This document shows positions 10,945 through 32,398 of a stretch of 35,935 nt of DNA, piece by piece (positions within the stretch are counted from its first letter, which is position 1; each line of letters begins with the position of its first letter). Location: the NCBI GenBank assembly GCA_013538855.1, contig JABXJS010000001.1, forward strand, positions 1 through 35,935. The letters are read 5' to 3'. This DNA comes from Herpetosiphonaceae bacterium. GTDB taxonomy: Bacteria > Chloroflexota > Chloroflexia > Chloroflexales > Herpetosiphonaceae. The position numbers and the translations under genes were made by a program. Under the pieces are notes generated by a model. It saw nothing but the letters and a program-made list of their open reading frames with translations. It searched no databases and was not told where the DNA came from.

Positions 10945-11748
10945 CTACAGCTGCCTGAGAAAGGCGCGCACCGACTGATTGGTCTTGTCGGGCTGCTCGA
11001 TAAAGTACACATGGCCGGCACCGTGGAATAGCTCTAGCTGGGCACCTGGGATGTGCTCGGCCAGCAGCTTGCCGTTACCAACCGGCACCAGCCGATCTTC
11101 GTCGCCGTGGTGAATGAGCGTCGGTGTAGCAATGGTGTGCAGGCGCGCCAGCGTATCGTGGCCGGTGATCGCCATCCACTGGCCCTGAAAGCCGTGGAGG
11201 GGAATACGGTTCTTCAAGCCCTCGCTGACGTACTCCTCGACCACCTCGGGGTGCTGCGCGGGGAAGTCAGGCGCGAAATTAAACTTAACGCTATCGCGCA
11301 TGACCTGCTCGGCCGTCTTGCCTGCGCCAGCGAGCATCAGCTCGAGCACCCAGCTTTCTGGCGAGATGGACTGCTCGCCGCCGGGGATGGTGCAGCCGAG
11401 GATCAGGCCCTGCACCCGCTCTGGATGCTGGAGCACAAGGTGCTGCGCGATCATGCCACCCATCGAGACGCCGTAGACGTGGGCCTGGGCGATGTCGAGG
11501 TGGTCGAGCACGGCCACCGCATCTGCGGCAAAGTTGGCCATCGAGTAGGCGGACATATCGGTGGGGGCGGACGAGCCGCCAGCGCCGCGATTATCAAAAC
11601 GAATCACATCGAAGTCCTGGCTCAGCGCTGGCACCTGGTTGCGCCAGCCGTTGAGCGTGCCGCCAAGGCCCATAATCAACAGCAGCGGCGGCCCTTTGCC
11701 GCTGCGCTCATAGTTCAGCGTCACGCCATTGGCCTCAAAGGTGGGCAT
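10945..11748 (-). CDS. Alpha/beta-fold hydrolase
   Basis: A 267-residue cytosolic hydrolase. The nucleophile elbow is GVSMGG, the acid is in HHGDEDRLVP and the catalytic His is in GAGHVYF, giving a complete Ser-Asp-His triad. The oxyanion region (LLLIMGLGGTLNGW) is normal. The closest recognisable types are 3-oxoadipate enol-lactonase-like and carboxylesterase proteins; the substrate is not visible. GGGAGG precedes the ATG. It lies 24 bases after the DUF2085 gene. Confidence 0.83.
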   Translation of the reverse strand: MPTFEANGVTLNYERSGKGPPLLLIMGLGGTLNGWRNQVPALSQDFDVIRFDNRGAGGSSAPTDMSAYSMANFAADAVAVLDHLDIAQAHVYGVSMGGMIAQHLVLQHPERVQGLILGCTIPGGEQSISPESWVLELMLAGAGKTAEQVMRDSVKFNFAPDFPAQHPEVVEEYVSEGLKNRIPLHGFQGQWMAITGHDTLARLHTIATPTLIHHGDEDRLVPVGNGKLLAEHIPGAQLELFHGAGHVYFIEQPDKTNQSVRAFLRQL

Positions 11749-11772
11749 ACAACCTCCCTAAAACACTAGCTC

Positions 11773-12666
11773 CTACATATTCATCGAGTTTTCAAGGGCG
11801 ATGCGCGCCCAGGCCAGCAGCCCGAACTCAGCGCCGGTGAGCACCAGCGCCACCATCGCCGGCCGCGCCAGCTGCACAACGCGCAGCACAGCACCCTCAT
11901 AGCGTGCGATCATCGCCACCACAATCAGGTTGACGACAAACATCACGCCGATGATGCCGAGCGTGCTAAAGATCGCCAGCGGATAGATCAGCAGGCTGGT
12001 GTTGAGCTGAATCAACGCAAACAGCGCCAGCTCGACGCCGAAGATCAGCGCCACCTCGCCCCAGCTTTTGATCACGCGCTGCTCGCGGCGCGCGTTCGAG
12101 CGCAGCGAAAGGTTGAAGGCATACAGCAGCAGCGTCGCCACCGTCATGCCCATCGCCAAGCCGGACAAGATGCGCAGGACTGGCTGCGGCTCATACAGGT
12201 TCAGCCCGCCGATATCCTTCAAGAGCGAGTTAAAGCCATCAACGCCCATCCACAGCACATTGAACAGCAGCAAGAGGCTAATTGAGCGCGGCGGCATGCG
12301 GGTGGCGCGCCCGCGCCCAAGCGCGATGAGAGTCAGCAGTGAGGCTAGAAACCCGCTATAGATGCCAGTGTTGCGCTGGCACAGCGGCATCTCAACGCCA
12401 GCGATGACCAGCGTGTGCTCCTGAGCGCAAACGCCGTGGACGATCCAGCCCAGGCGATCAACAAACGTGCCCGGCAGCAGCACCAGCGTGCCGATCAGCA
12501 GGGTCAGCAGCAGCCCCAAAAAGGCCCACAGGCCAGCGCGATCATCGCGGACAGGCTGTGGCGCTGGGCGGCGCGGCTGTAGCTCCTCGGCGCGCGTTTG
12601 GCGATTGGCCGCAACGCGCTGCCGCGCCTGCTCAAGCACGAGGCGATTAAGCTCTTCATCTGTCAT
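11773..12666 (-). CDS. DUF2085 multi-pass membrane protein
   Basis: A 297-residue integral membrane protein with a ~45-residue charged cytoplasmic N-terminus and about seven hydrophobic segments. The segment between the first two helices, HGVCAQEHTLVIAGVEMPLC followed by QRNTGIYSGF, is the hallmark of DUF2085. Its conserved Cys and His residues may bind metal or form a disulfide. No function is established for the family. The start overlaps the TlpA-like stop (ATGA), and the chain is longer than the core domain because of two extra C-terminal helix pairs. Coupling with two thiol-redox genes suggests, without proof, a role at the membrane in redox or metal handling. Confidence 0.75.
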   Translation of the reverse strand: MTDEELNRLVLEQARQRVAANRQTRAEELQPRRPAPQPVRDDRAGLWAFLGLLLTLLIGTLVLLPGTFVDRLGWIVHGVCAQEHTLVIAGVEMPLCQRNTGIYSGFLASLLTLIALGRGRATRMPPRSISLLLLFNVLWMGVDGFNSLLKDIGGLNLYEPQPVLRILSGLAMGMTVATLLLYAFNLSLRSNARREQRVIKSWGEVALIFGVELALFALIQLNTSLLIYPLAIFSTLGIIGVMFVVNLIVVAMIARYEGAVLRVVQLARPAMVALVLTGAEFGLLAWARIALENSMNM

Positions 12667-13220
12667 TGGCGACCTTGCCCATCCATATCGTTGAGGTACC
12701 GGCTCATCTGCGAGCGAGTCATCACCCCGATCTGCATACGCCGAACCAAGCCTTGCTTATCGATAAAAAACGAGGTCGGAATGGCGTTGGTCACGCCAAA
12801 CGCGGTGGAAACATCGCCGGTGCGATCAAGCAGCAGCGGAAACGACAGACCGTACTGTTGACCAAACTGCTCAACCAGTGTTGGCCGCTCGCGGCGGTTG
12901 ACCGCCAGCACCACCACATCGGAGCGCTCGTGGATCAGCGCCTCGAAGTCGGGCATCTCATGGCGACAGGGCAAGCACGTTGTCTCCCAAAAATTGATGA
13001 TAACGTTGGAGCCACGGTAATCGCTGAGCTTGTGCGGCTCGCCGTTGATTTGAAACGTTAGCTCGGGCACGACCTCGCCAGTCTCAACGCTGCCGCCAAC
13101 GACCGCTGGCTGCTCACCAAGGGTTACAGGGCCGCCGCTAGGTGTCGGGGTGGCCTGCTGCGCGCCACAGGCCAGCAGCACAAACAGCACAGCGGCGCTG
13201 ACTAATCCACGCCAAATCAC
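12663..13220 (-). CDS. TlpA/ResA-like thioredoxin-fold lipoprotein
   Basis: A 185-residue extracytoplasmic redoxin. It starts with GTG at 13220 behind AGGAGG. The signal sequence ends in the lipobox LLAC (Cys18), followed by a Thr/Pro-rich linker. The thioredoxin-like domain has the redox motif TTCLPCRHEMP and the cis-proline segment NAIPTSFFID, both normal for TlpA/ResA. Such proteins reduce or exchange disulfides outside the membrane, often for cytochrome c or copper sites. It sits between a glutaredoxin-like gene and DUF2085. Confidence 0.87.
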   Translation of the reverse strand: MIWRGLVSAAVLFVLLACGAQQATPTPSGGPVTLGEQPAVVGGSVETGEVVPELTFQINGEPHKLSDYRGSNVIINFWETTCLPCRHEMPDFEALIHERSDVVVLAVNRRERPTLVEQFGQQYGLSFPLLLDRTGDVSTAFGVTNAIPTSFFIDKQGLVRRMQIGVMTRSQMSRYLNDMDGQGRQ

Positions 13221-13234
13221 AACTATTCCTCCTT

Positions 13235-13255
13235 ATGCTATGGTGATCATAGCAT
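13235..13255 (-). promoter_or_regulatory. Hairpin between glutaredoxin-like and TlpA-like genes
   Basis: ATGCTATG (13235-13242) and CATAGCAT (13248-13255) form a perfect 8-bp stem with a 5-base loop, directly before the AGGAGG of the TlpA-like gene. There is no T-run, so it may stabilise or modulate the message rather than terminate it. Confidence 0.5.
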
Positions 13256-13259
13256 GATT

Positions 13260-13499
13260 TTACCCCTGCATTCGCAGCACTTCCGCGCTCACAGCAGCTG
13301 GGTCGAGCGGGGCATCCCATAGGCGCGTGCCAATTTTAAGCACTGGAATGCGCCATTTATATGCCTCATAAACCGCATGATCGTCTAGAATATTGATTAG
13401 TTGCAAATGAGCACCTGCCGCTGCCGCCAGCTCATCGAGCCAGGCAGTGGCATCCTCGCACAGATGACAGCCAGGCCGGATATAGAGGGTCCATTCCAT
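13260..13499 (-). CDS. Small glutaredoxin-like protein
   Basis: A 79-residue thioredoxin-fold protein. The start MEWTLYIRPGCHLCEDA carries the redox pair Cys11-x-x-Cys14, followed by the cis-Pro segment WRIPVLKIG and a C-terminal helix. This is the DUF836/glutaredoxin-like group rather than classical glutaredoxin. It should act in the cytosol as a thiol-disulfide exchanger. It heads the redox operon and is divergent from the hydrolase at 13541 with only 41 bases between them. No clear promoter could be read there. Confidence 0.82.
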   Translation of the reverse strand: MEWTLYIRPGCHLCEDATAWLDELAAAAGAHLQLINILDDHAVYEAYKWRIPVLKIGTRLWDAPLDPAAVSAEVLRMQG

Positions 13500-13540
13500 T
13501 GCGATGCTCTCACTTTCCTGGCCTCAGTAGAGGAGGCGTA

Positions 13541-14326
13541 ATGAACGTCAACGTTAATGGTACCACACTCGCATACGACGATGCAGGCAGCGGCGATCCG
13601 ATTGTGCTACTGCACGCATTTCCGCTCAGCCGGGCAATGTGGCGCGATCTCCAGAGCGCGCTTGCGCCCAACTACCGCGTGATCGCACCAGATATGCGTG
13701 GCCTTGGCGCGTCAGGCCAGGCCAGCTCGGCCAGCACCCAGGAGATGGCCGACGATGTTGCGGCGCTGCTTGACGCGCTCGACATCGAGCAGGCGGTGCT
13801 CATCGGGCTATCGATGGGCGGCTACGTGGCGCTTGATTTCACCCGGCGCTATCGTCGGCGCGTGCGCGGCCTGATCTTGGCCGACACCCGCGCCACACCA
13901 GACACCATTGAGGGCCGCGAGAGCCGCGAGGCGCTGGCCCAGAAGGTGCTGCGCGAGGGCAGCGCCGCCATCGCCGAGCAGATGCTGCCTGACCTGCTGG
14001 CCGCCAGCACCCACGCCAACAAGCCAGAGGTCGTCGCTCAGGTGCGGGCGCTGATCGAGCAAAACACACCAGCCGGGATCGCCACCGCCTCGCGCGGCAT
14101 GGCCGAGCGCACCGACTCACGCCCGTTTGTGCCCATGTTCGAGGTGCCTGCGCTGGTGATCGTTGGTGCCGACGATGCGCTCACGCCGCCCAAGCAGGCC
14201 GAGGCGCTGGCCGCCGCCCTGCCGCAGGGCCAGCTTGCCATCATCCCTGAGGCTGGACATCTCGCCAACATTGAAAACGCCAGCGCCTTCAATGCCGCTG
14301 TGCACGCGTTCTTAGCCCAGCTTTAA
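13541..14326 (+). CDS. Alpha/beta-fold hydrolase (enol-lactonase-like)
   Basis: A 261-residue hydrolase. The ATG at 13541 follows GGAGG and begins the canonical MNVNVNGTTLAYDDAGSGD; an earlier frame opening at 13499 lacks a ribosome site. The triad is Ser in GLSMGGY, Asp in GADDALTPP and His in EAGHLANIE. The pattern resembles 3-oxoadipate enol-lactonase (PcaD-like), but these hydrolases share motifs and no catabolic genes are next to it, so the substrate is open. It stands alone on the plus strand and ends at a strong hairpin. Confidence 0.83.
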   Translation: MNVNVNGTTLAYDDAGSGDPIVLLHAFPLSRAMWRDLQSALAPNYRVIAPDMRGLGASGQASSASTQEMADDVAALLDALDIEQAVLIGLSMGGYVALDFTRRYRRRVRGLILADTRATPDTIEGRESREALAQKVLREGSAAIAEQMLPDLLAASTHANKPEVVAQVRALIEQNTPAGIATASRGMAERTDSRPFVPMFEVPALVIVGADDALTPPKQAEALAAALPQGQLAIIPEAGHLANIENASAFNAAVHAFLAQL

Positions 14327-14332
14327 ACAGCA

Positions 14333-14367
14333 ACGAGCGCGGCGTGCTTGCTACACGCCGCGCTCGT
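14333..14367. terminator. Strong hairpin between convergent units
   Basis: ACGAGCGCGGCGTG (14333-14346) and CACGCCGCGCTCGT (14354-14367) form a perfect 14-bp stem with a 7-base loop. There is no T-run on either side. It lies 7 bases after the hydrolase stop and 19 bases from the end of the surface cluster, so it may serve both strands. Confidence 0.7.
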
Positions 14368-14385: not shown

Positions 14386-15717
14386 TTAGCCCGCCTGGAT
14401 GGCGACAGACTGCTGCAGCAGCGCCTCGCGCAGCGCTGGGTCGATGACAAAAGCCTTGCGCTTGCCGGTCAGCCCGCGCGGAATACGCTCCACAAAGTTC
14501 ACCTGCACTGACAGTGGCTCGTCAACCGGCCAGGCATCCTGCAGCTGCTGGCGCAGGCGCTCAGCCAGCTGTGGCTGCGCAGCGTGGTCCACACGCGGCA
14601 CAACCTTCAACTCGAGAGCACCTCGCCCCACCTGATGGATCTGATACTCGATCACATCGGAGCAGCGCAGCATGCTGCCAATCAGTGGAATGGCTAGGTG
14701 TGTGCGGCCACCGGCGATCACCTGATCATCGCGCCGCCCCTCGACCGACGCGATCACGGGATGCGCACGCCCACACGGACAGCGCTCGGCGCTGAGCATG
14801 GCCAGATCGCCAGTGCGGTAGCGCAGGAAGGGCATGGCCTTGTTGGTCAAGCCCGTCACCACGACTTCGCCAAGCACGCCTGGCGCTGCTGGCTGATCCG
14901 CGCTATCGAGCACCTCAAGGATGACATTCTCGGCCACCACGTGCAGCCGTCGCACGCGACACTCGAAGGCCATCTGATATAGCTCAAACGACGAGTACTC
15001 GTTGTAGGCTGGGCAGCCGAAGCGCTCCTCGATCAGCGCTAGCTCCTCGGGCAGAAAGCTCTCCGAGTTCAGCTCGATCATCTTCGCGCCAATCGAGCGC
15101 AGTGCCGCAGGCTCCGCGCCACGGGCCAGCACCAGCAGCGATGAAGGATAGCCACAGATCAGGTCTGGCTGGGCCTGCCGCAGCGCCGCTACCTGCTCCT
15201 CAATCGAGCCATTGATCGGCACATAGAAGCGCCGCAGCAGCCCGAAGCGCTCCAGCACAAGCGGCGTCTGAAACGGCTCCCAGCGAAAGTAGGCCCGGCG
15301 ATGCCAGGGGCGATAGCCCATCTCGGCATACTGGCGATAGGAAAGCGCCGTATACAGATCGTGGCTGTCACGATCATGGTACAGCTCTAGGCGCGCACCG
15401 CTTGAGCCGGAGGTGAAATCCTTGACGCTGTTGCGCTCATCGTAGCCCTGGGCGCGGGCAGCAGGCGTGCGCATATCCGGCTTCGCAACCGGCGGCAAGC
15501 GCTGCAGATCCTCCAAGCTACGAAAATCGGCAGGGCGTAGTCCCGCAGCATCGAAGCGCTGGCGCTGCAGTGGCACATTATGATATGCGTGGGCTACCAT
15601 CGCCTGCAGCTGGTGCAGCTGCTGCTGTCGAAGCGCCTCTAGGGACATCCACTGCTTGCGCAACACCTGCTGCGTAAGCCAAAGCTGCCGAGCCAGATGG
15701 TAGCCTACCGCGATCAT
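14386..15717 (-). CDS. PaaK/CapK-like adenylate-forming enzyme (copy 2)
   Basis: A 443-residue member of the phenylacetate-CoA ligase/CapK family of AMP-forming ligases. Visible features are DFTSGSSGARLELYHDR (ATP loop, from about residue 98), YRTGDLA, the CPCGRAHP metal-type motif and the C-terminal IPRGLTGKRKAFV with a Lys-containing adenylation segment. These enzymes activate a carboxylate as acyl-AMP. CapK relatives occur in polysaccharide clusters, where their substrate is mostly unknown. It overlaps the membrane-protein stop by one base (TGATG) and is the last gene of the cluster. A paralogue lies at 19521. Confidence 0.82.
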   Translation of the reverse strand: MIAVGYHLARQLWLTQQVLRKQWMSLEALRQQQLHQLQAMVAHAYHNVPLQRQRFDAAGLRPADFRSLEDLQRLPPVAKPDMRTPAARAQGYDERNSVKDFTSGSSGARLELYHDRDSHDLYTALSYRQYAEMGYRPWHRRAYFRWEPFQTPLVLERFGLLRRFYVPINGSIEEQVAALRQAQPDLICGYPSSLLVLARGAEPAALRSIGAKMIELNSESFLPEELALIEERFGCPAYNEYSSFELYQMAFECRVRRLHVVAENVILEVLDSADQPAAPGVLGEVVVTGLTNKAMPFLRYRTGDLAMLSAERCPCGRAHPVIASVEGRRDDQVIAGGRTHLAIPLIGSMLRCSDVIEYQIHQVGRGALELKVVPRVDHAAQPQLAERLRQQLQDAWPVDEPLSVQVNFVERIPRGLTGKRKAFVIDPALREALLQQSVAIQAG

Positions 15718-16421
15718 CAGACCTCCTTCGGCATCCAGCGCCCCAGCAGCCGCTCGCCCCAGCGGCGCAGTGGCAGAAACATCACCACTGCCGCCAGGAT
15801 CAAGTGAATGCTGATAAAGATCACCATCCCAAAGGCCGTCGGCGGCGATCCAGTAAAGACGATCACGTGCGAGGCCCAGTCGAAGGTCTCAGGCCGTGTG
15901 CCACCGGGCCACTGATACATCCACCAGAAGGTGAAGTCGTTCAGGCCCGAGATCAGGATAAGGATGCCAGCCAAGCCCAGCTTCAGCGCATGATCGCTGC
16001 GCCCGCCGCCAAGCCGGAAGGCAAACACCGCCAGCAGCACGGTGAAGGCATTCAGGAAGATCGCAAAGCGGTAGAAGAAGGCGAACTGGGCATTCTGCAC
16101 CTCGGCGCTCTGATCGGCCACGCCCATCAGCCGGAAGATCTCGATCACCAACTGCGAGTCAAGATAGCCCATATACAGCAAAAATGCACCAAGCAAAAAC
16201 CAGTGCGACCATGTGCGCTGGCGCGGAAACAGCGCGATTGTAAACACCGCCGAAACCAGCGGCGTCAGCTTGAACAGAAACTCGCCCAACCCATTGATGG
16301 TGCGATCCGGTGGCAGCACCAGCATCACCAGTGCCGTAATGCCGCCGCCAACCAACGCGGGCAACAGCCACGCCCAGCTCAGCCAGCGGGGGCGTACGAT
16401 TGAAGAAGTTGTCATTGTCAT
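15717..16421 (-). CDS. Multi-pass membrane protein of unknown function
   Basis: A 234-residue protein with about six to seven hydrophobic segments spread over its whole length and a basic C-terminus. I recognise no family. Polar spots inside the membrane region (GYLDSQLVIEIF, GLNDFTFWWMYQWPGG, TGSPPTAFG) are the best candidates for a functional site. The ATG at 16421 is chosen over a TTG 15 bases upstream; another ATG lies 6 bases further in. A stable hairpin (16428-16457) sits just before it. It is coupled to the second PaaK-like enzyme by a 1-base overlap, so the two may work together, for example on a membrane-bound acyl acceptor. Confidence 0.7.
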   Translation of the reverse strand: MTMTTSSIVRPRWLSWAWLLPALVGGGITALVMLVLPPDRTINGLGEFLFKLTPLVSAVFTIALFPRQRTWSHWFLLGAFLLYMGYLDSQLVIEIFRLMGVADQSAEVQNAQFAFFYRFAIFLNAFTVLLAVFAFRLGGGRSDHALKLGLAGILILISGLNDFTFWWMYQWPGGTRPETFDWASHVIVFTGSPPTAFGMVIFISIHLILAAVVMFLPLRRWGERLLGRWMPKEV

Positions 16422-16427
16422 GCTCTT

Positions 16428-16457
16428 AGCGGGCAACCTTGGGAAGGTATGCCCGCT
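16428..16457 (-). promoter_or_regulatory. Long hairpin in front of the membrane-protein gene
   Basis: AGCGGGCA-ACCTT (16428-16440) pairs with AAGGT-TGCCCGCT (16444-16457), giving a 13-bp stem with one bulged A (16449) and a GGG loop. It ends 7 bases before the ATG at 16421, so it could mask the initiation region or protect the downstream message. No T-run follows. Confidence 0.6.
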
Positions 16458-16496
16458 CTTATCATTTCACTCTATCGCCAAAAAAACCAGCGCCTG

Positions 16497-18335
16497 CTAT
16501 GCCTCAACGCCAGCGAGGCTCAGCTCCTGGGTCGTCTGTGTCTGAACGCCCTGGCGCTCCTTGTGCACAAAGAACGGCCCCAGCGCCAGCCCGTCAAGAT
16601 CAGTATTCATGAAGCAGCGAATCGCGTCATCAGGCGAGCACACAATCGGCTCGTTGTTGTCGTTGAACGAAGTGTTCACAACCATGGGCACGCCGGTGAG
16701 CGACTCAAAGCTCTTGATCAGATTCCAGTACTGGGGATTATCCTCACGGGTCACCGTTTGCACACGGGCGGTGCCATCGACGTGGGTGATCGCTGGCACG
16801 CAGTCGCGCTGATGCTCGAGCACATCGAACACCAGCAGCATCACCGGCGACGGATAGTCAGACACGAAGTACTCGCCAGCGCGATCGGCCAGCACCGATG
16901 GCGCAAACGGGCGGAACGGCTCACGGTGCTTAATCTTGGCATTCAGGCGCGGCTTGGACTCAAAGGAGCGTGGATCGGCCAGAATCGAGCGGTTGCCCAG
17001 CGCACGCGGTCCACACTCCATGCGGCCCTGGAACCAGCCAACAATCTTGCCATCGACAAGCTGCTGCGCAGTGTACATGGCGACATCGTCAGGTCGATCG
17101 TACACAATGCCCCGGCGCTGCAGAGCCGCCTCGATCTCGGCCTCGGTGTACTGCGGGCCAAGATAGATGTAGTTGCCAGTGTGGCGTGGCTCGCTCAGCA
17201 CAGCGTTGCTCACATACAGCGCTGCGCCGATGGCGGTGCCATCATCAGAGGCCGCTGGCTGTGCGAAGAAGTCCTCGAACGGTGTTTCCAGCAGGATGCG
17301 CCCATTCATCACGCTATTCAGGGCCACACCGCCGGCCACACACAGGCGCTTCAGGCCGGTCTCCTTGTAGAGCCAGCGTGCGATATGCAGTCCAGCCTCC
17401 TCCAGCGTGACCTGCAGGGCGTAGGCGATATCGGCATAGTGCTGCTCAACATCGCCGTCCTTGCTGCGTGGGCGCGGCGGACCGAACTCATCAATAAACT
17501 TCTGCGAGACCGAGTGCTTGCCGGTCTTATGAAAGTCAAACCAGCTCAGATCAAGCTCATAGGTGCCATCTGGCCCAAAGTTGATCAGCTGCTTAAACTG
17601 CTCCACATAGCGATCGGTGCCGTAGGGCGCAAGGCCCATCACTTTGCCCTCATCGGAGGTCGGATAGAAGCCCAAGTAGCCGGTGACGACCGAGTAGAGC
17701 GCGCCCAGCGAGTGGGGAAACTTCACGCGCCGCAGCTCGTGGATCTTGTTTTTGTGGCCGACGCCCAGGAAGGTGCAGGTGCCATCGCTGCCCAGGCCAT
17801 CGACGCTGAAGATCGCGGCATCCTCGAATGGCGAGATGAAAAATGCGCTGGCCGCGTGGCACAGGTGGTGATCGATCAGATGGACCTTGAACTTCACCGG
17901 CTGGCTATAGTTCAGCTCATCGCAGATCGTCTGCTTGAGCGTAAACGTGCGCTGGATGTGCAGCAGCACCGCGCCACCAACATCGTAGTCATCAAAGTGG
18001 CTCTGCGCACCATCGTTTTTAAGCGTCGAGAACAGGCCCCGTGCGGGCAGCGGCGACATTCCACGCAGCGCCGAGAGCGTGCCGGGGAAATAGCGCACAA
18101 AGTGCTTGGCCGCATGGCGCAGCTCATGCCAGCGCTGCCAGAAGTAGGCCACATGATCAACATCACCAAGCGTGATTCCCGCTGAGTCCAGACAGTACTG
18201 GATCGCCATTTTTGGAAAACCGCCAAAGTGCTTCTTGCGATTGAAGCGCTCCTCCTCAGAGAAGGCAACGATCTGCCCATCTTTGAGCAGTGCTGCCGCC
18301 GAGTCGTGATGTCGACTAATACCTAAAACGTACAT
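16497..18335 (-). CDS. Carbamoyltransferase (NodU/CmcH/TobZ family)
   Basis: A 612-residue O-carbamoyltransferase, which moves a carbamoyl group from carbamoyl phosphate, via carbamoyl-AMP, to a hydroxyl of a sugar or natural product. The Kae1-like N-terminal domain shows YVLGISRHHDSAAALL, the metal-binding HHLCHAASA (about residue 156), VDGLGSDGT, AGGVALNSVMNG and SDDGTAIGAA. The C-terminal domain shows CGPRALGNRSILADPR and NTSFNDNNEPIV. I place the start at the second ATG (18335), 10 bases after GGAGG; the ATG at 18344 would be only one base from it. It has its own promoter inside the cluster. Its acceptor would be the product of this cluster, so far unidentified. Confidence 0.9.
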   Translation of the reverse strand: MYVLGISRHHDSAAALLKDGQIVAFSEEERFNRKKHFGGFPKMAIQYCLDSAGITLGDVDHVAYFWQRWHELRHAAKHFVRYFPGTLSALRGMSPLPARGLFSTLKNDGAQSHFDDYDVGGAVLLHIQRTFTLKQTICDELNYSQPVKFKVHLIDHHLCHAASAFFISPFEDAAIFSVDGLGSDGTCTFLGVGHKNKIHELRRVKFPHSLGALYSVVTGYLGFYPTSDEGKVMGLAPYGTDRYVEQFKQLINFGPDGTYELDLSWFDFHKTGKHSVSQKFIDEFGPPRPRSKDGDVEQHYADIAYALQVTLEEAGLHIARWLYKETGLKRLCVAGGVALNSVMNGRILLETPFEDFFAQPAASDDGTAIGAALYVSNAVLSEPRHTGNYIYLGPQYTEAEIEAALQRRGIVYDRPDDVAMYTAQQLVDGKIVGWFQGRMECGPRALGNRSILADPRSFESKPRLNAKIKHREPFRPFAPSVLADRAGEYFVSDYPSPVMLLVFDVLEHQRDCVPAITHVDGTARVQTVTREDNPQYWNLIKSFESLTGVPMVVNTSFNDNNEPIVCSPDDAIRCFMNTDLDGLALGPFFVHKERQGVQTQTTQELSLAGVEA

Positions 18336-18362
18336 GGGGGTCATTCCTCCGATGCTGGGTAC

Positions 18363-18390
18363 TCTATATTCCCCAAATTAAGTGTTTCAA
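18363..18390 (-). promoter_or_regulatory. Internal promoter before the carbamoyltransferase gene
   Basis: On the minus strand TTGAAA (18385-18390) and TATAGA (18363-18368) are spaced by 16 bases. The start codon lies about 28 bases beyond the -10 box. It would let the last three genes of the cluster be expressed separately. Confidence 0.6.
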
Positions 18391-18404
18391 TAGACAGTAA
18401 ACCG

Positions 18405-19520
18405 TTACGATCTGGCGCGCTCGGCCTTCTCCATCAGCATGACCGGATCACGCGGTGGAGTGTCATCGGGGCCGCCGATAACCCGCCGCAGCGTGGGCTG
18501 AAGCATCTGGAACAGGCTGTTGAGCGGCGCTGGATGGGCGCGATAGCAGAACCAGCGCGTTTCCTGCTGGAAGCCATGGCCGCTCTTCTCCTTCTCGTTC
18601 GTCAAGCCACCGTAGATGGTGGTCACGTGCTGGTCGATATACCAGCGAATCATCTCGTCCATCAGCACAAAGTACAGATATGTCTGCCGCGAGACCGCAT
18701 AGTTCAGCCCGGCCATCGGCCACCAGACCGTATCGCCCTGGCGCGTGCAGCACAGAATGCCTTCGAGCTTGCCTTTGACGTAGCCACGGAAGATAAACAG
18801 GTGCCCAGGCTGTTCACGATCCCAGCCTGCCAGCATATCGGGGCCAAAGGGCATGGTTTCTTCGGTGTGGCCATGGCGGGCGTAGACCTGGAGCAGCAGC
18901 GGGTATAGCTCTTCGGACTCGCCGGGCCGCAGCGGGCCATGGTCGAAGGTGATCTCGTTCTCGACCGCCCGCCGCCGAATGCGCCGAATCTCCGCCCGAT
19001 CTTTGCTTGGCAGCTCAGCCAGATACTCATCATAGGTGATGCCTGGCCGCAGGTGCAGGATGGAGAACACCGGCTGCTCCGACATGGAGAAGCCATAGCG
19101 GCGCAGTGGCTCAATATCGCTGTCGGGCACGTTGCTGATCGCGTAGACGAGGCGCTGCTTGCGCCAGCACAGCTCGGCCATAGCCCGTTGAAAGTAGGGC
19201 AGAATGCGCTCGAAGCTCACATCTGAGCGCAGCAAAATACCTGGATTGTTCGAAGAGTAGGGCGCTGACAGCACCACAGACGAGCGCTTCAAGATCTTCT
19301 CGCGCACGCCGACGCGACTAAATGTCGCGTTGAGCGAGCCGGTGATAATCGCGGCGCAGCCAGCAGCGTCATAGAGCATAATGTAGCAGCGCTGCTGATC
19401 GCGCCATACTTTTTCAATCAGCCGCAGCCAGCTTGTGTGCATCACCAGGCAGTCGTCCGCTAGTCGATCCCACGCCTCGGTATCAATCGCATCAACCGAG
19501 TAACAGATGCGGTAGTCCAC
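18405..19520 (-). CDS. GNAT/FemAB-like acyltransferase (BioF2-type domain)
   Basis: A 371-residue protein made of two GNAT-like halves, as in FemABX aminoacyltransferases and the Acetyltransf_6 (BioF2-like) family. The second half shows the typical FIFRGYVKGKLEGILCCTRQ strand pair and MDEMIRWYIDQHVTTIYGG. The first half holds ILHLRPGITYDEYLAELPSK and an Arg-rich helix (DRAEIRRIRRRAVENE). FemABX proteins transfer amino acids from aminoacyl-tRNA to lipid II, and relatives in polysaccharide clusters may modify sugars; the donor here is unknown. It begins immediately after the stop of the first PaaK-like gene, so it is co-transcribed with it. Confidence 0.72.
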   Translation of the reverse strand: MDYRICYSVDAIDTEAWDRLADDCLVMHTSWLRLIEKVWRDQQRCYIMLYDAAGCAAIITGSLNATFSRVGVREKILKRSSVVLSAPYSSNNPGILLRSDVSFERILPYFQRAMAELCWRKQRLVYAISNVPDSDIEPLRRYGFSMSEQPVFSILHLRPGITYDEYLAELPSKDRAEIRRIRRRAVENEITFDHGPLRPGESEELYPLLLQVYARHGHTEETMPFGPDMLAGWDREQPGHLFIFRGYVKGKLEGILCCTRQGDTVWWPMAGLNYAVSRQTYLYFVLMDEMIRWYIDQHVTTIYGGLTNEKEKSGHGFQQETRWFCYRAHPAPLNSLFQMLQPTLRRVIGGPDDTPPRDPVMLMEKAERARS

Positions 19521-20858
19521 TTAGATCACCTCCGCACTGCTCAGCTGATAGGCGCGCGCTGCGTTATCAACCACCGAGGACTGCTTGACCTTGGAGACGA
19601 TACAGCGCAGCTTGCCTGTTCGTCCACGCTCAAAATCTTGCGTTAGCACAACATCAAGCTTGACTGGCTCGGCAAATAAATCGCGCAGTGTGGCAACGAT
19701 TGTCCCTGGCAGCGTCTCGACGTGCTCGGGCAGCACATTGAGATAGAGTTTGATATGATCAAGCTCTTCCTGCACCAACACATGCTCAAGCAGGCCCGGC
19801 ATGCTCTCAAAGGCGGGGTTGACGATGCGCGGGCTAAAGCGGCGGCCACTTGGCAGAATAATAAAGTCATCGACGCGGCCCTGGATCAGGCCCATGGTCG
19901 GAAAGCCCGAGCCACATGCGCAGCGCTCCACCTGGCCCACACGCCCAACATCGCCGATTGCATAGCGCAGCAGCGGCATTGCCGGATTGGTCAGACCAGT
20001 GATGATCAGATCGCCATCTTCACCGGGGGCCGCTGGCTTGCCATCGCGTAAAAACTCCACGAGCACATTATCGGCGGCAATATGATAGCGATGGGCTGGG
20101 CACTCGTAGGCCACATGATGGAACTCGAAGGTTGAGTAATCATCGAAGCAGTCGCAGTCGAAGGCCATGCGAATCGTATCGCGAATCCCGTCGGTCAACA
20201 GCTCAGAGTGCAGATGGATTGCGCGCGGGCGAATCCGCCGCAGCTCAGCCTCCGTCGCCACCTGGATGATCATCAGCAGGATGGAGGGATAGGCGGTAAT
20301 AAACTGCGGATTGATCTCCAGCAGCCGCTGCAAAAACGCACGCGCATCTTTCAGCTTAAGATCGATCTGCTGGCGCTGGCCAAGGCCAATGCGCTCCCAC
20401 GGCAGCGAGGGCAGCGGATCGAAGGCGGTATAGGCAACGCGGTACCAGGGCCGATAGCCAAGCTGCCACAGGTGCCGAAAGGCATAGGCAAAGTACATAT
20501 CATAGGCACCACGCGAGTGGTAGATATGCAGCACCTTGCCCGAGGAGCCAGAGGTTGGCTCAAACACCGTATTTTGCGGCGTATAGCCACGTGCCAGCAG
20601 CTCCGCTGAGGGCAGATGGCGGATCTCCTCTTTCGTCGTAATCGGCAGCTTCGACAGATCATCAAGCGATTGAATATCGGCTGGCGTCACGCCCACGTCG
20701 CTCAGCTTACGGCGGTAGAATGGACTATTATCCCACGCATGTTGGACCATCCACCGTAACCGCTGTGTTTGATAAGAACGAATTTGCTCTGGACTCAGCC
20801 GTTCATGAGACCACGCTCGCACGATGCCAGTGGCCTGGCGAGCTGCGTGCAACAACAT
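19521..20858 (-). CDS. PaaK/CapK-like adenylate-forming enzyme (copy 1)
   Basis: A 445-residue AMP-forming ligase of the phenylacetate-CoA ligase/CapK type. FEPTSGSSGKVLHIYHSRG holds the ATP loop (about residue 101), RYAIGDVGR and CACGSGFP follow, and the C-terminus has DFERGRTGKLRCIVSK with the expected Lys. AAGGAG lies 8 bases before the ATG. It is clearly related to the protein at 14386, but the two differ in the pocket region (HHVAYECP here, YQMAFECR there), so they may activate different acids. It lies between the ATP-grasp ligase and the FemAB-like gene, an arrangement that suggests successive acyl or amide couplings. Confidence 0.83.
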   Translation of the reverse strand: MLLHAARQATGIVRAWSHERLSPEQIRSYQTQRLRWMVQHAWDNSPFYRRKLSDVGVTPADIQSLDDLSKLPITTKEEIRHLPSAELLARGYTPQNTVFEPTSGSSGKVLHIYHSRGAYDMYFAYAFRHLWQLGYRPWYRVAYTAFDPLPSLPWERIGLGQRQQIDLKLKDARAFLQRLLEINPQFITAYPSILLMIIQVATEAELRRIRPRAIHLHSELLTDGIRDTIRMAFDCDCFDDYSTFEFHHVAYECPAHRYHIAADNVLVEFLRDGKPAAPGEDGDLIITGLTNPAMPLLRYAIGDVGRVGQVERCACGSGFPTMGLIQGRVDDFIILPSGRRFSPRIVNPAFESMPGLLEHVLVQEELDHIKLYLNVLPEHVETLPGTIVATLRDLFAEPVKLDVVLTQDFERGRTGKLRCIVSKVKQSSVVDNAARAYQLSSAEVI

Positions 20859-20921
20859 GCGACATACTCCTTAGGTAACTATGATTATCAAGCGGCGGCG
20901 CAACGATCGCTACGCCTGCCG

Positions 20922-22202
20922 TTAGTCGAGCTGCAGGGATACTGCGCCACGCTCAAGCTCCAGCAGCTCCAGCGGCTCATCCCAAACATAGTCCTGCTGC
21001 TGAAAACTGGCGTGGCCGGTCGGCGCTGGCTTGGACTGCTTCTGGCGGCCACGCAGGAGCATGCGCCATAGATCTGCCGAGAACACATAGTGGCCAAGCG
21101 AGACAAAGACGCCGAGCGTTGCCCGCCAGTCATCGCGCGACATCCCATCGTAGACGGTGTTGGGCGCGCGCAGCTGAAAGAACGGCGGGTCCATCTCAGC
21201 GCGCTTCGGATTGGTCACATAGTGCAGGAAGTCGCCAGGGAACAGCCAGCGGCAGCGCTTGCCGACATCGTAGGAGTGCACCTCGGGCACCGTCTCGCCG
21301 CGTGCGACACGATACAGCAGATGCGGGAAGTCGATGCCGCACGAGATCGCCAGCTGCACAGAGGCCCAGAAGCGTGGATTGACCTCCATAAAGTAGATCT
21401 CACCAGTCTCAGGGTTCATCATAAACTCGGCCTCGGCCAAGCCATACCAGCCGATCTCGCGCAGGAGCGCGACTGTCCGCTCCACCAGCGTGGGCATCCA
21501 CACGCTCTCCTGAACGGTGCTCAGACCGTCGCCAACCGGAAAGTGGCGAATTTCCTTTTGGGCAAACGAGCACACCACACGGCCCTGCTGATCGATGATC
21601 ACACAGACATCGAACTTCGTGCCGCTGGGGATGCACTCCTGAATCATCGGGTAGGGGTACTCGCGATGCACCTCATTCCACACATCGGCCACGCTCATGC
21701 CCGGGCGCACATAGGTAATGCCACGGCCAGCCGAGCTCGAGCGCGGCTTCACCACCACAGAGGTGCCGAGCATGCCCGCGTAGGCAGCGGCCTCCTCGGC
21801 ATTGCGCGGCAGATAGGTGCGCGGATGCGGAATGCCCAGGCGGCGTGCCACCTGGCTTAGGCGCGCCTTATCCAAGCCGTACACAACCTGCTGCGGCTCG
21901 GGAATAGGCATATGCGTAACCCGCATAAAATCTTCGTGATAGCGCGAGCAGAGCTGCAGCGTGCTATCATCGGCGGGAAAGAATACATCGTGACGATTCT
22001 GGCGCAGATAGTCGAGCATAAAGTCAACAAACTGCTCTGGCTGCTGCTGTGGATCTGGATAGATCACTCGCTCGCGGCAATAGCGTGAGAAAAACGCCGG
22101 CGATAGCCGGACAGCGCTACCTGCCGTCACCGGAATACCTTGACGACCGAGCGATTGACAAATAACGACAGACTTCCTTAAAAGAGCGTCGGTAACAAAC
22201 AC
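20922..22202 (-). CDS. ATP-grasp ligase (carbamoyl-phosphate-synthase-like)
   Basis: A 426-residue ATP-grasp enzyme, which joins a carboxylate to an amine or thiol through an acyl phosphate. The preATP domain begins MFVTDALLRKSVVICQSLGR, common to the stand-alone group in which the motif is xVTDxxxRKS. The ATP-grasp core has VVVKPRSSSAGRGITYV (about residue 147) and the metal-binding EIYFMEVNPRFW (about 272). The last ~120 residues are unassigned and end in an acidic tail. The start is GTG at 22202 with GAGG 8 bases upstream. Substrates are unknown; the neighbours suggest attaching an amino acid or other carboxylate to a surface-exported product. Confidence 0.8.
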   Translation of the reverse strand: MFVTDALLRKSVVICQSLGRQGIPVTAGSAVRLSPAFFSRYCRERVIYPDPQQQPEQFVDFMLDYLRQNRHDVFFPADDSTLQLCSRYHEDFMRVTHMPIPEPQQVVYGLDKARLSQVARRLGIPHPRTYLPRNAEEAAAYAGMLGTSVVVKPRSSSAGRGITYVRPGMSVADVWNEVHREYPYPMIQECIPSGTKFDVCVIIDQQGRVVCSFAQKEIRHFPVGDGLSTVQESVWMPTLVERTVALLREIGWYGLAEAEFMMNPETGEIYFMEVNPRFWASVQLAISCGIDFPHLLYRVARGETVPEVHSYDVGKRCRWLFPGDFLHYVTNPKRAEMDPPFFQLRAPNTVYDGMSRDDWRATLGVFVSLGHYVFSADLWRMLLRGRQKQSKPAPTGHASFQQQDYVWDEPLELLELERGAVSLQLD

Positions 22203-22219
22203 AAAAAGTTCCTCACTAA

Positions 22220-22237
22220 GTAACGAAATGCCGTTAC
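22220..22237 (-). promoter_or_regulatory. Inverted repeat before the ATP-grasp gene
   Basis: GTAACG (22220-22225) and CGTTAC (22232-22237) are perfect arms around 6 bases, immediately upstream of the GAGG ribosome site. It may be an RNA hairpin or an operator. The rest of the 130-base gap 22203-22332 shows no clear promoter. Confidence 0.35.
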
Positions 22238-22332
22238 CTACTACACTCTCAACTTCTCTCTCTATAGAAGACGTATCATCGGCACCCCAATTTCCTCAGA
22301 TTGAAACACCGAGGATTAAAGGCGACAGATGC

Positions 22333-23757
22333 TCAGACCACTTGCTGCGGCGTCGGATCACGGCGAATGATTCGCTGCACAATCAGCCAGTCCTGCTTGT
22401 TTATGGCCCCGCCCAAGAGCAGAACACCGATAAACGCGAGGCTCGCTAGTCCATAGAGCGCAATGTTGTTAGGGATGAGATGGAATAGGAGAACCATGCT
22501 CCCGAGCGCCAGCAGAGGAGTACAGAAGATGGTGAAGACGTGGCTCAGGTGCGCATGGCGCAGGAACGCGATCAGTAAAGTACCAGCCAAAATATATTGT
22601 GAGGCAGCGTAGGCCCACGGCACAGCCATGAGCGTGCCCCAGATGCTGGCGGCCAGCGTTATTGGCGTGGCCACCACGATACACACAAACAGCAGCCGTG
22701 CACACTGGCGCTGCTGGCCGATCGTTTCGAGCACATTCAGCAGCACTGTTGCGGCAAAGAGGCCCGGGATGCTCCAGCTCAACGTCTGCAAGATGGCGGC
22801 GGCCGAGGCATACTCGGCATCAAAGATACGAATAAGCACCGGCGCGCCAATATACAGGCTGCCAGCAATCGCGCAGCCGACGATCATCACATAGCGCAGC
22901 AGCGTGCTGGTCGTTGGGCCAACGAGATGAAACTCGCTGCGCGACTGGCGCACCAGCATTGGCAGCACGGCGGTGATCATCAGCAGCGGAATAACCGTTG
23001 TGATCAGCACCAGGTTATACACCGAGTTGAAGAGTCCGACCGCCGTTGGGCCTTGAAAAATCGTGATGCCCATAATCGCCACGCGATCAAACATCAGCAG
23101 CAGCACATAGTTGATGCCAAATGGAATCGACAGCTTGAAAATGCCGCTCAGCGCGCTCGCCTGAACGCGCAGCCGCTCGAATGCGACATAGCGACGCAAG
23201 AAAAAGACCGCGACGGCAAGCACGCTTAGTGTGGCGGCGGTGTAGAGCGGCGCAAGCACGTTGACGTCGCGCGTCAGCCATGTGAGCGGAATAACCGTCG
23301 CCGCAATCAGTATCATATTGATAAGCTGTAGCCCAGCCTGCATGCGCATACGCTCAAGGCCGCGCATCACCGAGCAGCACAGCATAAAAAACGACTGGAC
23401 GATGGCATACAGGCCCATCCACAGCGCCACCCACCAGTAGTTGTCTGTGAGCAGACAAAAAATGCTCACGACCAAGATCGCAAGCGGCAGCAGCAGCAGC
23501 TTGAGGGTAAAGCCATTGCTCAAAAGCCGCCCAAGCCGCTGTGGCGGGGCATGCGCAGCCTCGCGGATAAAAAAATCGTCGAGGCCAAAGTTCAACACAA
23601 CGCTGAAGATCGCGGAGAAGGCGAGTCCAGACGAGAGCACGCCGAACTTCTCTGGCCCAAGCGCGTTGATCATATACCAGGTGGAGATGAAGCTAATCAG
23701 CCGAACCCCAAGAAACCCCGCCAGCAGCGCCACAAAGTTAGAAAGTAGCTGTCGCAT
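22333..23757 (-). CDS. Wzx-type flippase (polysaccharide/lipid exporter, MOP superfamily)
   Basis: A 474-residue membrane protein with 12 to 14 hydrophobic segments and the N-terminal pattern of the polysaccharide_synt family (NFVALLAGFLGVRLISFIST, then GPEKFGVLSSGLAFS). Such proteins flip undecaprenyl-linked oligosaccharides, or other lipid-linked precursors such as lipid II, to the outer face of the membrane. The conserved Asp-rich spot FGLDDFFIRE is present in the second helix region. It follows the GNAT gene by 5 bases. It is the only transporter in the cluster, so the product is probably lipid-linked and exported, although no glycosyltransferase gene is present between 14386 and 24362. 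Confidence 0.85.
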   Translation of the reverse strand: MRQLLSNFVALLAGFLGVRLISFISTWYMINALGPEKFGVLSSGLAFSAIFSVVLNFGLDDFFIREAAHAPPQRLGRLLSNGFTLKLLLLPLAILVVSIFCLLTDNYWWVALWMGLYAIVQSFFMLCCSVMRGLERMRMQAGLQLINMILIAATVIPLTWLTRDVNVLAPLYTAATLSVLAVAVFFLRRYVAFERLRVQASALSGIFKLSIPFGINYVLLLMFDRVAIMGITIFQGPTAVGLFNSVYNLVLITTVIPLLMITAVLPMLVRQSRSEFHLVGPTTSTLLRYVMIVGCAIAGSLYIGAPVLIRIFDAEYASAAAILQTLSWSIPGLFAATVLLNVLETIGQQRQCARLLFVCIVVATPITLAASIWGTLMAVPWAYAASQYILAGTLLIAFLRHAHLSHVFTIFCTPLLALGSMVLLFHLIPNNIALYGLASLAFIGVLLLGGAINKQDWLIVQRIIRRDPTPQQVV

Positions 23758-23762
23758 TGAGA

Positions 23763-24362
23763 CTACACCAGCTCTTTCTGCAGGCGCAGCGAACGCGACC
23801 GACGTAGCAAAAGCCGCCCGAGCAGTGGAACATAGGAGCCATACAGCTGATAGCCACTCTTCTGAAACAAATTCAGTGAAGCTTGATTGGTTGGTTCAAT
23901 CAGCACCGTTGAAACGCGCTTGCGTTGATGCCGAGCATAGGCTTCGGCTGCGCTAACGAGCTGCTGAGCCACCCCACTCCGTCGATACGTTGAGTCAATT
24001 GCTACGCCGCTGATATAGATCTCCTCCCGCCCGATCGGCAGACTCGCCTGACGTAAAATCACGGTCATCTCGATTGCCTTCCACCAGCTTAAATGCTTGC
24101 GCATCAGTCGAAATGTGCGCCACCAGCCAACACTCGCTGCTTCTGAGCGATCAACAAACAACGTTCCAATAATGCGTCCAGCATCCTCAGCTACAAAAAT
24201 CCCTTCTGTAGGGGTAGCATGTGCTCGACGCCATTCGGACATCAAGGTAGTCACCTCGGCAGTTGATAAAGCCGCTAGTCGCTGACGAATAGCTGGAAAC
24301 ATGGTCATCGTGAAGGCCTCGATAGCTGGAATATCAGCATCTGTTGCTGTACGAATCAGCAT
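23763..24362 (-). CDS. GNAT-family N-acetyltransferase, first gene of the surface cluster
   Basis: A 199-residue GNAT. The acetyl-CoA loop is DSTYRRSGVAQQLVSAAEAYA (R-x-x-G-x-A), preceded by EEIYISGVAI, and LNLFQKSGYQLYGSYV is the C-terminal part of the fold. The end is strongly basic (LLLRRSRSLRLQKE), which may associate with the membrane. I use the ATG at 24362 (MLIRTATDADIP); a GTG 6 bases upstream is also possible and neither has a strong ribosome site. In polysaccharide clusters such enzymes acetylate amino-sugar nucleotides, but here the acceptor is not evident. Confidence 0.75.
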   Translation of the reverse strand: MLIRTATDADIPAIEAFTMTMFPAIRQRLAALSTAEVTTLMSEWRRAHATPTEGIFVAEDAGRIIGTLFVDRSEAASVGWWRTFRLMRKHLSWWKAIEMTVILRQASLPIGREEIYISGVAIDSTYRRSGVAQQLVSAAEAYARHQRKRVSTVLIEPTNQASLNLFQKSGYQLYGSYVPLLGRLLLRRSRSLRLQKELV

Positions 24363-24403
24363 GGTCACTCACGCTCGTTGACTATGATTGCTTCTGTATC
24401 TAC

Positions 24404-24437
24404 GATCACATATATGATCATTTTGGTTTTGATTCAA
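24404..24437 (-). promoter_or_regulatory. Weak promoter with an inverted repeat around its -10 box
   Basis: On the minus strand TTGAAT (24432-24437) and TATATG (24409-24414) are spaced by 17 bases, 4 of 6 matches each. GATCA (24404-24408) and TGATC (24415-24419) flank the -10 box as a perfect 5-bp inverted repeat. A start near 24402 would leave about 40 bases before the GNAT gene. Confidence 0.35.
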
Positions 24438-24718
24438 GACACTATGCTGCTGTTTGTTTGCCATCAGGACTGCAACCCGGACCACATTAATTGATAGACG
24501 GTATGGATGGATGGGCCTAGATGATTGTAGGATGTATCTGGCCCATGTGAGGGGGCTGTTGGAAGCCGATTACAAACCAGCAGACTGGATCGCACGATCA
24601 CAGCATTAGCAATTGAGCAAGCAGCGTAGAGCATCGTTGGCAGAATGTCTCGTCAATGCTAGGTCTACAAGGAAGATCACCGCTATCTCACGCGGCCATC
24701 TTATGTAGAGTAAAAAAC
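24438..24718 (-). other. Long non-coding leader of the surface cluster
   Basis: The stretch from 24363 to 24980 has no supported gene. Between the promoter at 24767 and the first gene at 24362 lies a leader of about 400 bases. ATGGGCC (24511-24517) and GGCCCAT (24540-24546) could form a 7-bp stem with a 22-base loop. I see no known riboswitch pattern. AT content is higher here than in the flanking genes. Confidence 0.4.
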
Positions 24719-24747
24719 AAAAAAATTGACTGGAGGATTACCTCCAG
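24719..24747 (-). terminator. Promoter-proximal terminator-like hairpin (attenuator candidate)
   Basis: On the minus strand CTGGAGG-TAAT-CCTCCAG (24747 to 24730) is a perfect 7-bp stem followed by TCAA, seven T, G and six T (down to 24712). It begins only about 13 bases after the predicted transcription start, so most transcripts would end at about 45 nt unless read through. Confidence 0.6.
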
Positions 24748-24766
24748 GGGTGAATGAATAAAATAT

Positions 24767-24796
24767 ACTATAGTCGAATAAAAAACATCTTGTCAA
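24767..24796 (-). promoter_or_regulatory. Consensus-like sigma70 promoter of the surface cluster
   Basis: On the minus strand a perfect TTGACA (24791-24796) and TATAGT (24767-24772) are spaced by 18 bases within AT-rich DNA. It is among the best-matching promoters in the window and points to the GNAT/flippase operon. Confidence 0.78.
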
Positions 24797-24906
24797 GCCC
24801 AGATTCCTATCGACAAATAAGACTAATGGACGATTGTTCTTGGTAGCGCTTCCAGCGCTAACAGAGCCAATAACCTCACAGCTGCGCTACCGACCGCTTG
24901 AAGCAT

Positions 24907-24956
24907 AAAAAAACAGCAGCCGCTAGAGTGAGTGGGTGCTCACTCCAGCGGCTGCT
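24907..24956 (-). terminator. Intrinsic terminator after the cyclophilin gene
   Basis: AGCAGCCGCT (24915-24924) pairs with AGCGGCTGCT (24947-24956), and GAGTGAG (24926-24932) pairs with CTCACTC (24939-24945) inside it, making a long stem with one mismatch. On the minus strand seven T follow (24913-24907). Confidence 0.92.
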
Positions 24957-24980
24957 TGTGGTAGGACTACTTAACTGAGT

Positions 24981-25739
24981 CTACTGGCCTTCTTCAATCG
25001 TAATGGTATACAGCTGATCGCCAGGAGCAGCGCCGGGATTGATCGACGGATCACGTGGCGTGATCTGCTGCAGCACATCCATGCCCGCAACGACCTCGCC
25101 AAAGATCGTGTAGCCCTGCGGCGGCAGGCCGACATTGCCATAGGTGATGAAGAACTGCGAACCGTTAGTGTCGGGGCCAGCGTTGGCCATGCCAACCACA
25201 CCGGCCTTGGTATAGTCAAGGCCGCTGCTTGCATCGTACTCGTTGGCAAACTCATAGCCTGGACCGCACAGACCGGTGCCGCTGGGGTCGCCAGTTTGCG
25301 CCACAAAGCCGGGGATCACCCGATGGAAGGTGATATTGTCGTAGTAGCCCTGCTGGGCCAAGAAGACGAAACTATTGACCGTGTTAGGAGCTGACTTCGG
25401 CAGCAGCTTGATCACCACATCGCCTTTGGCAGTTTTGAGGGTTGCGGTATAGCCCTTGCTGGTATCAATACTCATTGGTGGCGCGCTGTCAAACTGCATG
25501 ACATTCGCGCACGGCCCGCTCGCCGCAGGCGGTGCGGCCTGCTGCGTTGGTCGCGCATTGGCCGACGGTGCGGTCGGCTCAGGAGTAGTCACTCCCTCAG
25601 ATGTAGGCGTATCCGGAGTTGGTTGGGCTGCCCCAGCAACACTGGTAGGCCGCGTTTCGGCAGATGGTGTGGTCACATCGGCAGCACCACAGCCTGCCAG
25701 CAACACGGCTACCAGCAGCCCAAAGAACAATCGACGCAT
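24981..25739 (-). CDS. Cyclophilin-type peptidyl-prolyl isomerase lipoprotein
   Basis: A 252-residue extracytoplasmic protein folding catalyst. AAGGAG precedes the ATG at 25739 by 6 bases, and MRRLFFGLLVAVLLAGCG gives a lipobox LAGC. A Thr/Pro/Ala-rich linker runs to about residue 80. The cyclophilin domain (about 95-250) has FHRVIPGFVAQTGDPSGTG, with the catalytic Arg, and NGSQFFITY. The loop containing the second segment is slightly longer than in minimal bacterial cyclophilins. It is a single-gene unit with its own extended -10 promoter and a strong terminator. An alternative start 30 bases upstream would place charged residues before the signal and is less likely. Confidence 0.92.
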   Translation of the reverse strand: MRRLFFGLLVAVLLAGCGAADVTTPSAETRPTSVAGAAQPTPDTPTSEGVTTPEPTAPSANARPTQQAAPPAASGPCANVMQFDSAPPMSIDTSKGYTATLKTAKGDVVIKLLPKSAPNTVNSFVFLAQQGYYDNITFHRVIPGFVAQTGDPSGTGLCGPGYEFANEYDASSGLDYTKAGVVGMANAGPDTNGSQFFITYGNVGLPPQGYTIFGEVVAGMDVLQQITPRDPSINPGAAPGDQLYTITIEEGQ

Positions 25740-25778
25740 GGTGTACTCCTTAAAGAAATCTTTTCTCAACGTCGGGGG

Positions 25779-29529: not shown

Positions 29530-29563
29530 CTCAAACAGCCGCTGTTCGCAGCGAGGAGGAAGA

Positions 29564-30157: not shown

Positions 30158-30161
30158 CATA

Positions 30162-31262: not shown

Positions 31263-31310
31263 CGAAAAACCAGCCGCCTTCCTCAAACAACAGCATCTAC
31301 AACCGTGTAG

Positions 31311-31511: not shown

Positions 31512-31528
31512 GAATACTTCAGCGCAGT

Positions 31529-32383: not shown

Positions 32384-32398
32384 AGAGGATTTATTCAC

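Follow-up and report, generated by a model that had tools for sequence, protein, structure and literature searches.

Bacterial loci for capsules or exopolysaccharides of the Wzx/Wzy type combine a flippase with glycosyltransferases (GTs) and Wzy, and may include GNAT/Acetyltransf_6-type transferases (as in wps-3) or a PaaK-like ligase (as in the locus L070) as accessory enzymes. For wps-3 of Actinoplanes missouriensis, a Wzx/Wzy-dependent gene set with FemAB/BioF2-type decoration genes is described (PMC13390465). Here we describe a block of eight genes in a stretch of 35,935 nucleotides, hereafter the window, which represents an entire contig (C42; JABXJS010000001.1, assembly GCA_013538855.1) of a Herpetosiphonaceae genome of 6.3 Mb in 285 contigs. 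The block shares the flippase and the accessory enzyme types with Wzx/Wzy loci, but it has neither GTs nor Wzy, carries two PaaK-type enzymes (CapK1 and CapK2) together with a carbamoyltransferase, and is movable as a whole. As a leading, if tentative, reading we propose that it is an accessory decoration-and-export cassette for a lipid-linked glycan whose GTs are encoded elsewhere.

Individual components have relatives in antibiotic pathways. The carbamoyltransferase has both Pfam domains and the motifs of the NodU/TobZ/novobiocin family and scores more than 300 bits against solved members. Another protein, termed FemX-like here, is predicted to adopt the double-GNAT fold of FemABX and of Sbb17/Sba18, which belong to streptothricin-type antibiotics; however, alignments with these proteins give only 13-19% identity, and no streptothricin scaffold genes were seen here. 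GNAT-fold transferases of this sort, including Orf11 of BD-12, are described as aminoacyl-tRNA-dependent in PMC12945691. The PNP-1 cluster of Pantoea ananatis and the Eh318 cluster, the latter comprising seven genes with an ATP-grasp enzyme and an exporter of the major facilitator superfamily (MFS), are like the block in being GT-free and in having a NodU/CmcH carbamoyltransferase and an exporter of their own (PMC4010436). In the same account they possess an MFS exporter, an aminotransferase-fold enzyme and a formyltransferase, where the block instead has the flippase, CapK and FemX-like proteins; from the PNP-1-type set (carbamoyltransferase, aminotransferase-fold enzyme, SGNH hydrolase, formyltransferase, MFS exporter) it shares the carbamoyltransferase only. 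The literature searches made gave no account of the present gene set.

Organization and conservation of the block

The block consists of eight co-directional open reading frames (ORFs) on the minus strand (14386-24368), which are listed below from 24368 downward; G005 and G003 designate two other Herpetosiphonaceae genomes that carry it.

23763-24368, minus strand: GNAT acetyltransferase, 201 residues, first gene of the unit (PF00583, 8.6e-14; 39% identity to the G005 copy)
22333-23757, minus strand: Wzx/MOP-type flippase, 474 residues, about 12 hydrophobic segments (Polysacc_synt PF01943, 1.5e-18; 42% identity to the G005 copy)
20922-22202, minus strand: ATP-grasp ligase, carbamoyl-phosphate-synthase-like, 426 residues (PF02786, 5.7e-11; 2pn1, 2.9e-13; 65% identity to G005)
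19521-20858, minus strand: CapK2, PaaK-type adenylate-forming enzyme, 445 residues (NF045666, 4.3e-42, below cut-off; 4r1l, 9.8e-30; motifs)
18405-19520, minus strand: FemX-like double-GNAT acyl/aminoacyl transferase, 371 residues (PF13480, 9.8e-8; fold matches)
16497-18344, minus strand: NodU/TobZ-type O-carbamoyltransferase, 615 residues (PF16861, 1.2e-72; PF02543, 5.5e-64)
15717-16436, minus strand: membrane protein without known family, 239 residues (59-63% identity in G005 and G003)
14386-15717, minus strand: CapK1, PaaK-type adenylate-forming enzyme, 443 residues, last gene (NF045666, 3.3e-38, below cut-off; motifs)

The enzyme classes assigned in the original prediction were recovered by Pfam and NCBIfam, the eighth gene being that of the membrane protein, and the family assignments are consistent with the chemistry suggested there, namely acyl activation, transfer of amide, ester or carbamoyl groups, and flipping. 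As to the predicted extent (14386-24796), the start was correct, while 24796 is the first base of a promoter-like site and the first gene starts at 24368.

The order of the genes is identical in G005 (8/8 genes) and in G003 (5/5 visible genes), strongly indicating that the block is more than a chance grouping. Including the source genome, three of the nine family genomes are carriers, and these represent three genera; for G001 and G003, completeness is no higher than 75-76%. Identities between the copies range from 75-78% for the carbamoyltransferase down to 39% for the GNAT. In each case the block resides in a different neighborhood: it is flanked by genes for an alpha/beta hydrolase and a peptidyl-prolyl isomerase (PPIase) in the window, by a transposase piece (PF02371, IS116/IS110/IS902 family) and META and RCC1 proteins in G005, and by a Na/Ca exchanger and TerC in G003. 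Conversely, in six Herpetosiphon genomes (G002, G004, G005, G006, G007 and G008) the counterparts of 10945-14326 and 24981-25769 are found at one site that lacks the block, and G005 thus has the window-type site without the block while harboring the block elsewhere. The four empty-site loci that were inspected have two related ORFs between the flanking genes, and at L191:8204-9668, the one subjected to a Pfam run, both encode beta-carbonic anhydrases. The site in the window may therefore be the result of a replacement rather than of a clean insertion.

GC content at third codon positions (GC3) is 0.66-0.79 in seven of the block genes in the window (GNAT, 0.51) compared to 0.32-0.49 in G005. 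That the proteins were retained while synonymous sites changed points to selection and not to decay. A recent transfer among the three genera is not favored, as the carbamoyltransferases are about equidistant, similarly to the core KGOR subunits encoded near the block (77-81%), and as GC3 tracks the host. A gene for a metallo-beta-lactamase-fold hydrolase adjoins CapK1 in G003 and is separated from it by one small ORF in G005 (L024:2551-3402 and L025:6207-7073; 51% identity between the copies). It occurs in only these two of the nine family genomes, is absent from the source genome, and may be a ninth, optional member of the block.

Predicted activities of the encoded proteins

The carbamoyltransferase reaches 217.2 and 243.5 bits for Carbam_trans_N and Carbam_trans_C, both above cut-off, and matches the solved chains of novobiocin carbamoyltransferase (9s2t, 1.2e-101), TobZ (3ver, 5.2e-90) and also GdmN. 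Its motifs are conserved in all three genomes and it is predicted to O-carbamoylate a hydroxyl group, although it scores well below the NCBIfam cut-off for NodU (162 vs 1000 bits). Both CapK proteins remain below all NCBIfam equivalog cut-offs and reach 115-120 bits with the PaaK equivalog TIGR02155 (cut-off, 646); by this sequence comparison they are relatives of PaaK, but not PaaK. The CapK2 profile matches the structure of PaaK (4r1l), and the motifs TSGSSGK, GD, GR.DD and GRTGK are retained in all three genomes, as are, with small changes, the adenylate-forming motifs of CapK1. The nearest solved chain to the ATP-grasp enzyme is carbamoyl-phosphate-synthase-like (2pn1); in the two genomes where they are visible, motifs of the ATP-grasp and GNAT proteins are recognizable, one ATP-grasp motif and the GNAT motifs being variable.

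For the FemX-like protein, Acetyltransf_6 (PF13480) was the only family above cut-off, with FemAB_like (PF04339; 4e-4, 20.1 vs 27 bits) and NF047883 (24.5 vs 500 bits) below it, and searches by sequence against solved chains gave no meaningful match. The structural model matches FemX with a Z score of 16.3 (243 residues; root-mean-square deviation, 5.9) and the streptothrisamine-binding Sba18 and Sbb17 with 15.9 and 15.7, respectively; it is a weak model (mean pLDDT, 57.5) in which residues 150-320 are mostly better and the N-terminal half is poor. The model thus suggests a double-GNAT fold, for which aminoacyl-tRNA and acyl-CoA would be equally possible donors. The genes for CapK2 and the FemX-like protein abut or overlap by 1-4 bases in all three genomes (in the window, the FemX-like start abuts the CapK2 stop), suggesting that activation and transfer are coupled. 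The flippase is well above the cut-off of PF01943 (67.6 vs 28.2 bits). Neither Pfam nor NCBIfam contains a family for the membrane protein, which probably starts internally near 16415 rather than at the annotated 16436, and the model of which is too poor for use (pLDDT, 53).

Glycosyltransferases in and outside of the block

Searches with Pfam, NCBIfam and profiles detected no GT, no PF02397 priming transferase and no Wzy in the block, nor was a GT found on the 14-kb block contigs of G005 and G003, so that the absence of a GT from the cluster, as originally claimed, holds in all three occurrences. All matches to PF02397 and Wzy are located on contigs other than C42, C54 and C198. Outside C42, the source genome encodes four PF02397 enzymes and several Wzy-type proteins, and lipid-linked glycans are therefore probably available; a GT-rich Wzx/Wzy locus is present on its contig C268.

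Homologues of single block enzymes differ from the block in this respect. A GT was identified in 22 of 30 stretches fetched around other Chloroflexota carbamoyltransferases (within 500 bases in 21) and in 17 of 28 fetched around CapK homologues (within 500 bases in 12). These numbers stem from a six-frame recount, which supersedes a count with a crude ORF picker (17/25 for the carbamoyltransferase, 19/30 for CapK) and from which L045 (a short locus), L035 (a locus of the source genome) and named plasmid loci were excluded. The CapK homologue at L070 is surrounded by Wzy, GT4 and GT2 genes, and a 2217-base coding sequence on a Roseobacter litoralis plasmid (L023:13104-15320), which is named glycosyltransferase and contains a CapK-like region, probably represents a GT-CapK fusion. 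The frequent location beside GTs renders a glycan acceptor plausible. The case named beforehand as speaking against a GT-free cluster, the same genes within a GT-rich capsule locus, was not encountered for the whole block. A flippase without neighboring GT is not rare in itself, as among 14 other PF01943 loci of the three carrier genomes GTs were present in the stretch read at nine and absent at five. Two of these five are lone flippase-like genes in two genera (L205:9314-10930 and L207:8875-10530), the neighbors of which we take to be queuosine-synthesis genes.

The window itself contains a GT4/GT2 gene pair (30162-32398) between VTT/phosphatase-type genes and a cyclase-AAA-TPR gene. GT4 homologues occur in all nine family genomes, with or without the block (57-60% identity in seven of the eight genomes besides the source, 37% in G001). 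The genes of 28984-32804 follow one another as in the window in all three loci checked; of the genomes concerned, G007 has no block, and G003 and G005 have it at another place. We therefore rejected the pair as a part of the block system, contrary to the suggestion that GTs at 30162-32383 might be its partners; it probably constitutes a family-core locus for surface or lipid glycosylation. At 32804-35935, the contig end truncates a large ORF that encodes guanylate-cyclase, AAA_16 and TPR domains and is thus open-ended.

Occurrence outside the family

The complete eight-gene cluster was not found outside Herpetosiphonaceae in the scans made. In a sample of 400 genomes of the phylum, CapK2 at more than 60% identity was restricted to the source genome and G005, and the FemX-like profile matched three genomes, the third at 4.2e-13; the membrane protein has strong matches in two of 301 genomes and three more at threshold. 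The profiles for the FemX-like, ATP-grasp and GT proteins were iterated on the same ORF set, and as those for the FemX-like and ATP-grasp proteins stayed narrow (3 and 5 hits), the absence of these two elsewhere carries little weight. Plasmids yielded no match to the FemX-like protein (E<=1e-3) or the membrane protein (E<=0.1). A pattern scan of genome contigs returned a single contig of a metagenome-assembled genome, with patterns so strict that wider absence is not shown. In Halorussus and Haloprofundus, relatives of the ATP-grasp enzyme (32-35% identity) have flippase and sugar genes in their vicinity, but neither CapK nor the carbamoyltransferase gave a match there. The locus L166 was rejected as a CapK-carbamoyltransferase pair, the CapK match being a hydrolase/AMP-binding fusion.

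Transcription signals

Intergenic gaps within the block are 5, 130, 63, 0, 60, 60 and -1 bases in transcription order, and the block is framed by a promoter-like site and two hairpins:

24767-24796, minus strand: promoter-like TTGACA-18-TATAGT upstream of the GNAT gene (11/12 matches)
24915-24956, minus strand: terminator-like hairpin, 18 pairs, closing the upstream PPIase gene (hairpin scan)
14333-14367, no strand assigned: terminator-like hairpin, 15 pairs, between CapK1 and the convergent hydrolase gene (hairpin scan)

From this arrangement we infer a single transcription unit. A role of the promoter-like site as promoter of the block is suggestive only, as the scan gave four such sites compared to 5.4 expected from shuffles and, hence, no excess. 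The leader of about 550 bases (24369-24914) is AT-rich and could hold regulation; the region 24001-25000 has 47.9% GC, compared to 53-69% in the remaining 1-kb windows. A search for repeats in and around the block revealed no convincing long terminal repeat.

Possible function of the block

In the proposed decoration-and-export cassette, CapK1 and CapK2 would convert two carboxylic acids into adenylates or CoA thioesters, amines would be acylated or aminoacylated by the FemX-like enzyme and the GNAT, and the ATP-grasp enzyme might add one more amide-linked group. The NodU/TobZ-type enzyme would carbamoylate a hydroxyl, and the flippase would transfer the lipid-linked unit, once decorated, to the outside. 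The acceptor would most likely be an undecaprenyl-phosphate-linked sugar or short glycan, provided by priming enzymes and GTs encoded elsewhere in the genome. We favor this reading because the order of the block is kept in G005 and G003 amid different neighborhoods while the window site is empty in six Herpetosiphon genomes, because the motifs are retained, because homologues elsewhere are linked to glycans, because nine of the 14 other PF01943 loci in the carrier genomes are accompanied by GTs, and because the genome has priming enzymes and a Wzx/Wzy locus of its own. Several points weigh against it. Flippases are usually encoded together with their GTs; here, a GT is neither contained in nor adjacent to the block in any of the three occurrences, and 5.8 kb separate the block from the GT pair of the window, the order of which is kept without it. 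A particular GT set that co-occurs with the block was not found (one GT was tested), and the contig of G005 stops 232 bases past the GNAT gene and that of G003 starts inside CapK2, which hides the upstream neighbors.

The main alternative, which we consider possible and only somewhat less probable, is a self-sufficient pathway for a small molecule or lipo-amino acid, in which the CapK, FemX-like and ATP-grasp enzymes would produce an acyl derivative of an amino acid or of a short peptide, which receives a carbamoyl cap and is exported by the MOP flippase, with no glycan involved. Such a pathway would account for a movable unit that is GT-free in three of three occurrences and is accompanied by the metallo-beta-lactamase-fold hydrolase in two of them; the fold of the FemX-like protein is near that of Sbb17/Sba18, amino-acid transferases solved with streptothrisamine. 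However, flippases of PF01943 are known for lipid-linked glycans, most carbamoyltransferase homologues in the phylum lie beside GTs, and by Pfam and NCBIfam the block has no scaffold-making enzyme, i.e., no nonribosomal peptide synthetase, polyketide synthase or aminotransferase. A precedent exists in the GT-free carbamoyltransferase clusters with their own exporter, PNP-1 of Pantoea and Eh318 (PMC4010436). Nothing computed separates the glycan-decoration reading from this alternative. It appears highly improbable that the block is what remained of an ordinary Wzx/Wzy capsule locus after GT loss: its parts do occur singly in capsule-type loci, but ORFs and motifs are intact in three genera despite very different GC3, and the set is identical and GT-free each time. 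We give equally little credence to one split locus formed with the GT4/GT2 pair, which shares the contig at a distance of 5.8 kb, since GT4 is present in family genomes without the block and the order around the pair is maintained in G007, G003 and G005 irrespective of it.

A more specific and rather unlikely version without glycan is that a Wzx-type flippase was recruited to a GT-free pathway and that the eight genes alone make and export a carbamoylated, acylated amino-acid or peptide amphiphile. If true, this would be a new class of flippase cargo, the genes for which move between sites in filamentous Chloroflexota. More generally, a conserved, movable flippase unit without a GT would mean either that envelope decorations are exchanged as modules independently of the glycan backbone, or that the flippase has a non-glycan substrate.

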